The notes under the pieces were generated by a model. The model was not told where the DNA came from and did no database searches. It saw only the letters and a list, made by a program, of their open reading frames with translations. DNA of 64,000 nt from assembly GCF_003149145.1 (NCBI RefSeq), contig NZ_QGDQ01000002.1, positions 124,001 to 188,000 of the forward strand, given 5' to 3'. This DNA comes from Quadrisphaera granulorum (GTDB lineage Bacteria; Actinomycetota; Actinomycetes; Actinomycetales; Quadrisphaeraceae). How positions within the stretch are numbered: position 1 is the stretch's first letter; each line of letters begins with the position of its first letter. A program made the position numbers and the translations under genes. Positions 15,400 to 49,296 of this stretch are shown here, in pieces.

Positions 15400-15670
15400 A
15401 GGGCCTGTGGAAACTGTGGAGAACCCTCGTCGTCGCAGGTGAGGCGCCATGCACACCTGTGGACAGAGCTGTGGATGACGTGGGGAAAAATTACGGGTGC
15501 CTGTGGACGGCCAGAATCTGTCCACATCCCGTCCACAGAAGGACCCCCTGTTGTCCACACGTCATCCACAGGATTTGCGGGGTTTTCCACAGCCCCTGTG
15601 GATGGAGTTGTCCACAGGGGCTGTGGATGCCTGTGGATCGTCCTCACCTGGGGACAGAGGCTGTGGAAAA
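15400..15670. other. oriC: Chromosomal replication origin oriC (dnaA-dnaN intergenic region)
   Basis: The 511-bp gap between dnaN and dnaA holds about fifteen DnaA-box-like 9-mers in both orientations. Two are perfect TTGTCCACA (15551-15559, 15608-15616). Close relatives lie at 15406, 15415, 15458, 15470, 15502, 15518, 15529, 15562, 15583, 15597, 15622, 15632 and 15662. Short AT-rich tracts (GGGGAAAAATTACG at 15482-15495; AGTAGTCATA at 15391-15400) are candidate unwinding elements. Placement between dnaA and dnaN is the standard actinobacterial origin. The remainder (15203-15390) carries the dnaN leader. Confidence 0.95.
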
Positions 15671-17303: not shown

Positions 17304-17336
17304 TCATCCACAGGGTTGTCCACAGGCTGTGGACGG
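17304..17336. promoter_or_regulatory. Three DnaA boxes upstream of dnaA
   Basis: TCATCCACA (17304-17312), a perfect TTGTCCACA (17316-17324) and TGTGGACGG (17328-17336) lie 40-72 bases upstream of the dnaA start codon. DnaA boxes at this place in other bacteria mediate autorepression of dnaA; that role is inferred here. Confidence 0.75.
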
Positions 17337-24305: not shown

Positions 24306-24355
24306 ACGACGACGAAGGCCCCCGACCTGAGCAGGTCGGGGGCCTTCGTCGTCGT
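24306..24355. terminator. Bidirectional hairpin terminator between the GNAT gene and trxA
   Basis: A 23-bp perfect stem (24306-24328 with 24333-24355) closes a 4-nt loop GAGC; the arms include AAGGCCCCCGACCT. It lies between convergent genes and would end both transcripts. Confidence 0.9.
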
Positions 24356-46435: not shown

Positions 46436-46885
46436 ATGAAGCTCATCCTCACGCAGGAGGTCACCGGACTCGGTGCCCCCGGCGACGTCGTCGACGTCAA
46501 GGACGGCTACGCCCGTAACTACCTCGTGCCCCGCGGCCTGGCCACCGGCTGGACCAAGGGCGGCGAGAAGCAGGTCGCGTCGATCCGCGCGGCCCGCGCC
46601 AGCCGCGAGCTGGCCTCCCTCGACGAGGCCAAGGTCGTCAAGCAGCGCCTGGAGTCCAACCCGGTGAAGCTGCAGGTCCGCACCGGTACCGGTGGGCGCC
46701 TGTTCGGCTCCGTGACGCCGTCGCTGGTCGCCAGCGCCGTCAAGGACGCCACCGGCACGTCGATCGACCACCGCAAGGTCGAGATCGGCAACGCCATCCG
46801 CTCCACCGGCGAGTACACCGTGCAGGTCCGTCTGCACCCCGAGGTGTCCGCCTCGATCGACGTGCAGGTCGTCCCGGAGGCCTGA
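46436..46885 (+). CDS. rplI: 50S ribosomal protein L9
   Basis: A 149-residue L9. The N-terminal domain is [34 protein letters not shown] in family form (shown here in part: [20 protein letters not shown]). The long connecting helix and the C-terminal domain ([34 protein letters not shown]) follow. Last gene of the ribosomal string; a terminator follows. Confidence 0.97.
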
Positions 46886-47420: not shown

Positions 47421-47683
47421 TGTGGACAGGGACGTCAGCGCTGCGTCACCACCGGCGCGTCTCGCGCGACACGCCGATGATGCGACACGCCGCAACCTGG
47501 AGTTCACCCTGTGGACGATTCTCCGTCCACATCCGGTGGACAACCATCGGCGCAGCTCACGCGCCGTCCGCCCATGATCAACAGACAGTTATCCACAGTT
47601 GTGCACAGGTCTATCCACAACTTGTGGATAACTGTGGATGCCTGCGCCGCAGGTGGCAGCGCTGCCCATGCGCGTTGTCCACA
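47421..47683. promoter_or_regulatory. Second DnaA-box cluster, upstream of dnaB
   Basis: About ten DnaA-box-like 9-mers lie within 263 bp. Three are perfect: TTATCCACA at 47589-47597, TGTGGATAA at 47623-47631 and TTGTCCACA at 47675-47683. Close matches are at 47421 (TGTGGACAG), 47510 (TGTGGACGA), 47523 (CCGTCCACA), 47535 (GGTGGACAA), 47599 (TTGTGCACA), 47611 (CTATCCACA) and 47633 (TGTGGATGC). The stretch 47580-47640 is AT-richer than its surroundings. It is non-coding and ends about 240 bp before dnaB; the gap 47684-47925 shows nothing else but a GGAGG site. Confidence 0.85.
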
Positions 47684-47925
47684 GGGTCGCCGCGCCGAGG
47701 GGCGCGCAGAGCCTCCGGGGAGCCTTCCGGGCGCCTACCGTCGTCCTGCCACCGAGTCCGCGGCAGCAGGCGGCGAGCCCTCCGGCCCGTCACCCCGCTC
47801 CGCCGCCGGCCACGGACTGTCGGTGGTGGGTGAGTAGATGTGCCAGCAGGGCTCGGGGCGGTATCGCGACCTCGAGACGACGGGTGAGCGGGAGACCGCT
47901 CGGAGAGGGCGGAGGGCGAACACGG

Positions 47926-49296
47926 ATGTCGCTTGCTGACCTGGAGCCGTACGAGTCCTCAGGGCCGTCGGAGGAACTGGGGCGTACACCCCCGCAGGAC
48001 GTAGCCGCCGAGATGAGCGTGCTGGGCGGCATGATGCTCAGCAAGGACGCCATCGCCGACGTCGTCGAGCAGATCCGCGGCACGGACTTCTACCGTCCCG
48101 CGCACGAGCTCATCTACGACGCGATCATGGACCTGTACGGTCGCGGTGAGCCGGCCGACGCCATCACCGTCGCCGCGACCCTCACCCGTAAGGGCGAGAT
48201 CGGGCGCGTTGGTGGCCCCGGCTATCTGCACACCCTGATCTCCTCGGTGCCGACGGCGGCGAATGCCGGCTACTACGCCCGCATCGTGCGCGAGCGGGCC
48301 GTCCTGCGGCGCCTCGTGAACGCCGGCACGCGCATCGTGCAGCTCGGCTACGCCGCGGAAGGCGGCGACGTCGACGCGCTCGTCAACACCGCCCAGGCGG
48401 AGGTCTACGCGGTCACCGACCAGCGCCAGACCGAGGACTACGTGGCGCTCGGATCCACCATCGAAGCGACGATCGACGAGATCGAAGCGTCCAGCCATCG
48501 CGGTGACGGGATGATCGGCGTCCCCACGGGATTCGCCGATCTCGACGCGCTCACCAATGGTCTGCATGGCGGCCAGATGATTGTTATTGCCGCAAGGCCA
48601 GCAATAGGTAAATCTACAATTGGCCTAGATATTCTCAGGTCGGCGGCGATCAAGCACAACATGCCAGCCGTGGTCTTCTCCCTGGAAATGGGAAAGACCG
48701 AGATCACCATGCGTCTGCTGTCCGCTGAGGCGAAGGTCCCCCTGCAGAACATGCGCAAGGGCACTATGCGCGAGGAGGACTGGACCCGCTTGGCCCGCAC
48801 CATGGGTGCGGTCAGCGAGGCGCCGCTGTTCATCGATGACAGCCCCAACATGACGCTCATGGAGATCCGAGCGAAATGCCGGCGGCTCAAACAGCAGCAC
48901 GGGCTCAAGCTCGTCGTCATCGACTATCTGCAGCTCATGACGTCGGGCAAGAAGGTCGAGAGTCGCCAGCAGGAGGTCTCGGAGTTCTCCCGTGCGCTGA
49001 AGCTGCTCGCCAAGGAGCTCGAGGTGCCCGTCATCGCCATCTCGCAGCTGAATCGTGGCCCGGAGCAGCGCACGGACAAGCGCCCCGCGATGAGTGACCT
49101 GCGTGAGTCGGGCTCCATCGAGCAGGACGCCGACATGGTGATCCTGCTGCACCGTGAGGACGCGTACGAGAAGGAAAGCCCTCGCGCGGGCGAGGCTGAC
49201 CTCATCGTGGCCAAGCATCGCAACGGCCCGACGGACACGATCGTCGTCGCCTTTCAGGGGCACTACTCGCGCTTCGTGGACATGGCTACCGGCTGA
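47926..49296 (+). CDS. dnaB: Replicative DNA helicase DnaB
   Basis: A 456-residue hexameric 5'-3' helicase driving forks. The N-terminal domain is PPQDVAAEMSVLGGMMLSKDAI, with ADAITVAATLTRKGEI. The RecA-like motor begins at IGVPTGFADLDALTNGLHGG. Walker A is ARPAIGKST, motif 1a VVFSLEMGKTEITMRLL, Walker B KLVVIDYLQLM, then SRALKLLAKELEVPVIAISQLNR, and DLRESGSIEQDADMVILLHR. No intein is present. ATG 47926 has GGAGG ten bases upstream. Residues about 216-238 (48571-48640) are encoded by AT-rich rare codons (about 44% GC), unlike the rest of the gene. DnaA boxes lie upstream. Confidence 0.97.
   Translation: MSLADLEPYESSGPSEELGRTPPQDVAAEMSVLGGMMLSKDAIADVVEQIRGTDFYRPAHELIYDAIMDLYGRGEPADAITVAATLTRKGEIGRVGGPGYLHTLISSVPTAANAGYYARIVRERAVLRRLVNAGTRIVQLGYAAEGGDVDALVNTAQAEVYAVTDQRQTEDYVALGSTIEATIDEIEASSHRGDGMIGVPTGFADLDALTNGLHGGQMIVIAARPAIGKSTIGLDILRSAAIKHNMPAVVFSLEMGKTEITMRLLSAEAKVPLQNMRKGTMREEDWTRLARTMGAVSEAPLFIDDSPNMTLMEIRAKCRRLKQQHGLKLVVIDYLQLMTSGKKVESRQQEVSEFSRALKLLAKELEVPVIAISQLNRGPEQRTDKRPAMSDLRESGSIEQDADMVILLHREDAYEKESPRAGEADLIVAKHRNGPTDTIVVAFQGHYSRFVDMATG

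Follow-up and report, generated by a model that had tools for sequence, protein, structure and literature searches.

A dense DnaA-box array before dnaB in Quadrisphaera granulorum is probably the dnaB copy of a class-wide cis-regulatory module

The window analysed here is a 64,000-nucleotide stretch of the Quadrisphaera granulorum genome, which includes both the replication origin and the gene for the replicative helicase. Genes around the latter are ordered ssb, rplI and dnaB, with a gap of 1040 bp between the end of rplI (46885) and the start of dnaB (47926). A first-pass annotation had called this 1-kb gap non-coding and had placed a dense cluster of DnaA boxes in it. Two mechanical open reading frames tested inside the gap matched no Pfam family. 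Counting with the DnaA-box consensus TTRTCCACA, we found three perfect boxes between 47421 and 47683 (47589 on the + strand, 47623 on the - strand and 47675 on the + strand), eight boxes when up to one mismatch is accepted, and 12 when up to two are allowed. The dnaB start codon lies 505 bp after the start of the first box and 251 bp after the start of the last. The features are as follows.

15415..15670, no strand assigned: oriC, used as a yardstick, lying between two - strand genes, dnaN and dnaA
15714..17288, - strand: dnaA, with the ATPase domain and the C-terminal DNA-binding domain found
46436..46885, + strand: rplI (ribosomal protein L9), upstream neighbour of the array
47421..47683, no strand assigned: DnaA-box array, eight boxes at one mismatch or fewer, by motif count
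47466..47492, + strand: tandem GCGACACGCCG, a putative motif (copies 47466-47476 and 47482-47492, 16 bp apart)
47510..47543, no strand assigned: upstream boxes at 47510 (-), 47523 (+, two mismatches) and 47535 (-)
47527-47540: inverted pair CCACATCCGGTGGA, corresponding to the CCACA-N5-TGGA part of a class-wide element
47552..47560, + strand: GCAGCTCAC, a diverged GCAGGTCAG copy, 11 bp past TGGA as in many relatives
47589..47631: core boxes TTATCCACA (+, perfect), TTGTGCACA (+), CTATCCACA (+) and TTATCCACA (-, perfect)
47675..47683, + strand: TTGTCCACA, perfect, the last box ahead of a putative promoter
47736..47741, + strand: candidate -10 hexamer TACCGT of that putative promoter, 52 bp past the last box
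47926..49296, + strand: dnaB, replicative helicase of 456 aa (TIGR00665, 544 bits), without an intein

The array is common to all five genus relatives read, as the first-pass annotation had asked of close relatives, and the spacing between the first, second and inverted core boxes is 10 and 24 bp in 6/6 genus members read and in G002, which belongs to another genus of the same family. The tandem GCGACACGCCG is likewise kept within the genus and in G002. We rejected GCGACACGCCG as a genome-wide regulon motif, since its 599 one-mismatch matches show no excess over the 703 obtained with the backwards pattern. The same five relatives carry an intein in dnaB, at the P-loop Lys-Ser region (window 48574-48650). 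In the intein-free gene of the window, codons 221-240 around this site have a GC3 of 0.35, against 0.65-1.0 elsewhere in the gene; this looks like a homing site that was recoded or co-converted once an intein had been lost, or like a target that became immune.

Dense as it is, the array is not what base composition would yield. Across 300 shuffles of the window that approximately kept dinucleotide transitions, there were on average 6.0 boxes per window and never more than two per 270 bp. Its density had been said to rival that of the origin, and the counts agree, with eight boxes before dnaB and nine at oriC at one mismatch or fewer; with two mismatches allowed, oriC reaches up to 17 per 270 bp. 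The whole 4.88-Mb genome contains 26 perfect boxes (backwards pattern: three), and only at oriC and in the dnaB array are perfect boxes spaced within 300 bp of one another. One-mismatch boxes number 449 genome-wide (backwards: 316). Among the 100 of these 449 whose positions were listed, namely all of contig C1 and C2 to about 250 kb, there was one further group of three within 400 bp, before rpsB. Across these matches and all perfect boxes, similar clusters at numerous other loci did not turn up. The rpsB (ribosomal protein S2) gap holds three same-strand boxes in 52 bp (L387 1741-1792, equal to G000:C1:425540-425591), a weaker cluster. Directly 5' of dnaA lie two DnaA boxes (17304-17324), an arrangement that fits autoregulation.

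A dnaB match was obtained in 86 genomes of the order and in 155 of the class, and conservation was assessed in a part of these. The class sample comprises 57 loci and 100 stretches from them plus 11 further family loci, for 168 loci, 162 of them distinct. Within 700 bp upstream of dnaB, the 168 loci contain 571 boxes at one mismatch or fewer, compared to 60 for the backwards motif. At least two boxes occur in some 300 bp in 136 of the 162 distinct upstream regions, and in 4/162 when the motif is reversed. In the control stretch from -1000 to -700, no box was found in 152/162 regions and two boxes in one. The remaining dnaB regions have no box (12/162) or one (14/162), and these 26 with fewer than two count against DnaA control of dnaB. 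The exceptions to conservation with dnaB include the genomes read from two families. The array is missing in f11 (six genomes read, 0-1 boxes) and in f7 (four genomes read, 0-1 boxes); in f7 dnaB is still 31-52 kb from dnaA, and since the array is missing there though dnaB stays near dnaA, it is dispensable in this family.

Two other sources of the array were considered and set aside. An origin outside the class finds a weak and patchy signal in other classes of the phylum, with 23 boxes versus five for the reversed motif and at least two boxes in 7/25 loci, which come from 25 of the 53 genomes where dnaB was matched. That the cluster might belong to the rplI neighbourhood is unsupported, because the 26 rplI loci where no dnaB was detected (L030-L055) each have 0-3 boxes at one mismatch or fewer, at most one of them perfect, and nowhere do three fall inside 300 bp. 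The close box pair in L044 sits where that genome's dnaB array starts.

The boxes upstream of dnaB show a bias in orientation and a phased spacing. Between -450 and -80, 387 boxes lie on the dnaB strand and 116 on the opposite strand. Spacings between same-strand boxes show a 10.85-bp period with R 0.72 (335 spacings; maximum of 0.22 in 1000 draws from a null of uniform spacings), and the 63 regions that do not align with one another give the same R of 0.72 (from 125 spacings, with at most 0.33 under the null), although shared ancestry inflates these phasing statistics, as it does the gap statistics below, and the non-alignable subset reduces kinship and does not remove it. By its period, such phasing fits DnaA molecules that would be stacked along one face of the helix.

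Among the enriched words, CGACACGC occurs in 55/162 regions versus seven in the control stretch, and CAGGTCAG in 47/162 versus one. The latter is part of a composite element, CCACA-N5-TGGA-N10/11-GCAGGTCAG, that scores at least 15 of 19 in 78/162 upstream regions and in 4/162 of their reverse complements. The window carries a diverged version, with GCAGCTCAC at 47552. In 84/162 dnaB regions the composite element is weak or absent, which counts against DnaA control of dnaB.

We found promoter-like sequence of the form TTG[AG]-17/19-TANNNT within 120 bp 3' of a box in 35/162 regions, where shuffled tails gave 1.95 on average. Between box and promoter, the gap in those 35 is 5 bp in 14, 4 bp in two, 18-19 bp in four, 30 bp in six and another length in nine; the 14 gaps of 5 bp come mostly from two groups of near-identical promoters and so are not 14 independent cases. 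A promoter of this form was not found in the other 127/162 regions, which again counts against DnaA control of dnaB. In the window, TACCGT at 47736 is the likely -10 element of a putative dnaB promoter. The lack of a good -35 for this hexamer likewise speaks against such control; with a spacer of 16-18 bp, simple arithmetic puts the gap between box and -35 at about 28-30 bp. Rfam returned three matches on the dnaB leader, all far under gathering scores, and we took them as chance.

Scanning the named genomes for the composite element gave at least 119 matches. By our own classification, the 119 listed comprise 95 that lie upstream of dnaB, 13 that lie upstream of a hairpin RNA, five chance matches without boxes and six with too little DNA to classify. 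Eight genomes with an RNA-linked copy were searched for dnaB, and seven of them have dnaB elsewhere; in the four whose dnaB upstream region was read (L380, L382, L385 and L386), the element or a close variant is present at dnaB as well. The hairpin RNA is about 80 nt long and consists of an outer and an inner stem with the loop GCAAGGGGAAGGC, preceded by a promoter of the form TTGAC-TANNNT. Its loci are listed here.

Hairpin RNA loci: L267, L277, L281, L289, L291, L296, L312, L333, L341, L342, L372 and L375; L389-L418

In an alignment that was not fitted to the structure, 13 of 20 base pairs change on both sides, and 0/500 shuffles reach the covariation score, so that the covariation is strong. 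In 45 distinct rows fitted to the model the count is 17/20, a figure that leans toward the structure by construction and includes three reverse-strand rows. A comparison of 4227 Rfam families with nine loci, eight of them with the hairpin, gave no match above the gathering score; the sole match (E 0.17, 20 bits versus a gathering score of 95.9) lies away from the hairpin. The RNA is probably undescribed. With E 0.01 as the cutoff, a model built from just the hairpin finds a match in 61 of the 158 class genomes; in 60 of these, E is <0.001.

Boxes were then counted in the 300 bp 5' of the 30 best loci; one of them, L392, duplicates a sequence already in the seed. These loci have 70 boxes upstream, versus five for the backwards motif and three downstream. 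At least two boxes precede the RNA at 22 of the 30 and none at five, among them three closely related loci with low GC. The promoter is found at 28/30, and the gap from box to -35, in the 23 loci where it is measurable, is 18 bp in 14, 41 bp in four, 30 bp in two and larger in three. The composite element, even in a loose form, is present at only 9/30 of these best loci; the boxes are therefore the common part of the RNA loci, and the reading of boxes and element as a single cassette is weakened. Taking the contig of G153 as circular, the RNA and its two boxes lie at a distance of about 1.37 Mb from dnaA in this genome.

The hairpin RNA was not found in the window organism's own genome at E 0.1, and the model had no match in four genomes of f21, which may be the mycobacterial family. 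Seven weak or low matches were read. Three of them, within the window organism's family (L423 in G007, L424 in G002 and L420 in G001), have the loop and the promoter, and the sequence read there contains no box array. L421 has two boxes, and L419 is from the genome that supplied the seed L289. The loop is absent from L422 and L425, which look terminator-like and were rejected; some matches near E 0.01 are therefore spurious. A match in the window at 24307 was rejected too, as this hairpin has no such loop and resembles a terminator.

Tentatively, and with slightly more doubt than confidence, we propose that the phased boxes and CCACA-N5-TGGA-N10/11-GCAGGTCAG form a promoter cassette that would place both dnaB and a new, widespread RNA of about 80 nt with the loop GCAAGGGGAAGGC under DnaA, and that they may thus mark a conserved actinobacterial DnaA regulon that includes a small RNA linked to replication.

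For the array itself we favour, as the probable explanation, that it is the dnaB copy of a class-wide cis-regulatory module through which DnaA cooperatively sets dnaB transcription, probably mostly by activation. DnaA would assemble cooperatively on the same-face boxes just 5' of the dnaB promoter, this assembly would set the level of transcription, and the supply of helicase would thereby track DnaA activity. Because the module precedes two kinds of promoter, at favoured distances from the -35, and in one case far from oriC, it is best read as a site of transcription control for DnaA. The site shows two features of a DnaA-controlled promoter, namely several boxes near a gene promoter, in the window a putative one, and conservation together with dnaB. 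Activation is suggested by the DnaA I282T mutant of M. tuberculosis, which binds more weakly upstream of dnaB and under-expresses dnaB (PMC7738170, accessible part); that expression effect comes from one mutant protein and would extend to Quadrisphaera by analogy. We infer the action of DnaA in Quadrisphaera granulorum, the direction of its effect and the roles of GACACGCC and GCAGGTCAG from these combined observations. Of the three roles that the first-pass annotation had offered, DnaA control of dnaB is accordingly the best supported, titration could be an addition to it, and a second origin is unlikely.

Titration enters in two forms. So many sites are likely to titrate DnaA as a side effect, and titration could be a function of its own. 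The stronger version holds that the array is a sink near oriC that titrates or inactivates DnaA once the origin region has been copied, its position before dnaB being incidental, and this we consider unlikely. Box density is high, dense boxes outside oriC being what characterizes datA, DARS and box-cluster sinks; clusters outside oriC restrain initiation in B. subtilis (PMC5295017, accessible part); and the oligomer-like phasing would suit a sink as well. Distances from the origin bear on the matter from both sides. We examined 77 of the 80 genomes searched for dnaA, in five of which dnaA and dnaB are on different contigs. In the 72 with both on one contig, the genes are at most 150 kb apart in 65, as a sink would have it, and farther in seven; at least two boxes are present in 59 of the 65. 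Of the more distant cases, four f11 genomes whose dnaB is 268-350 kb away have no array (0-1 boxes), a loss with distance that a sink would also predict and that concerns one lineage. Against this, it is kept in two f13 genomes at 214-222 kb, with five boxes each; one f18 genome at 241 kb has two boxes. As the array is kept at such distances in f13 and lost in f7 close to dnaA, it is mostly tied to dnaB and can be lost. A sink would also leave unexplained why the boxes lie before dnaB and not 3' of rplI, why they keep favoured distances to promoter-like hexamers, and why they recur at the RNA promoter, once at the megabase distance given above. Nor was a substitute group seen in G088 or G048, two f7 genomes that lost the array: in G088 the only three-box group in the 100 kb around the origin is the one at dnaA, and for G048 the 80 kb covered, all to one side of the origin, contain no such group. 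In f11, G021 and G065 do have extra groups of three to four boxes near the origin besides those at dnaA/oriC (G021:C1:641937; G065:C1:1992583 and 1994189), which are possibly relocated sites.

It is quite improbable that another factor, such as MtrA or a protein binding GACACGCC or GCAGGTCAG, is primary and DnaA its co-factor. The fixed spacing of GCAGGTCAG would suit such a factor. MtrA is a candidate binder, since dnaB is on its M. tuberculosis target list (PMC11215152, as far as the available text goes), and some copies of the element read GGTCACAGCG, which contains the tabulated MtrA motif GTCACAGCG (PMC4285127, available portion). No consistent second half-site is seen 11 bp off when judged by eye, however, and the most enriched words in the region are DnaA-box words. 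The idea of a second replication origin, or of a distant half of oriC, is very hard to credit: the box count is oriC-like and the most AT-rich 50 bp reach 0.42 GC at the array versus 0.48 at oriC, yet there is no clear switch in GC skew at 47.5 kb (skew being weak throughout the window, oriC included), dnaA and dnaN with a box cluster between them are already present, and conservation goes with dnaB, not with place. An artefact of chance or base composition can practically be dismissed, as it is refuted by the shuffles, the reversed-motif controls and the class-wide conservation.

DnaA control of dnaB through this array, the reading we prefer, would make initiator feedback on the helicase partner an old, selected circuit and not a mycobacterial peculiarity, if true. 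The module before a covarying small RNA would likewise be a concrete DnaA target outside the replication genes. In the literature searched, whose coverage leaves out most subscription journals, we found neither the class-wide architecture nor the hairpin RNA described; the link between DnaA and dnaB is already known, and what is apparently new is the class-wide architecture together with boxes before a covarying hairpin RNA.

DnaA-box clusters named H24, H69 and D78 have reportedly been described in Streptomyces coelicolor, in work of 2006 attributed to Smulczyk-Krawczyszyn. A link between DnaA and its helicase partner had been put forward as new by the first-pass annotation, a claim overtaken by earlier work: binding of DnaA 5' of dnaB has been mapped in vitro for M. 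tuberculosis and with ChIP-seq for M. smegmatis, and the dnaB (Rv0057) region is among the five strongest DnaA sites (PMC7738170, accessible part). The mycobacterial site resembles the window array in being a DnaA-bound region 5' of dnaB; in the accessible text it is reported as a binding peak in two species, to which the present work adds conservation across the class, the phasing of the boxes, the accessory motifs and the favoured distances to promoters. Caulobacter dnaB is in the DnaA regulon, with predicted boxes and DnaA-dependent expression (Hottes 2005, via the available part of PMC8203912). It likewise has predicted boxes at dnaB, but it belongs to a distant phylum and the likeness is one of description only. 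The B. subtilis clusters and E. coli datA and DARS are, like the dnaB array, dense arrays outside the origin; as described in the portion of PMC5295017 available, they are defined by their effects on initiation or on the nucleotide state of DnaA, whereas the dnaB array is tied to promoters. Closest to the hairpin-RNA module is the DnaA peak at Rv3843c-RVnc0040 in M. tuberculosis, for which the authors saw no counterpart in other species (PMC7738170, within the part available). It resembles the hairpin-RNA module in that DnaA binds next to an annotated non-coding RNA, and the module may help to place this peak beside RVnc0040.
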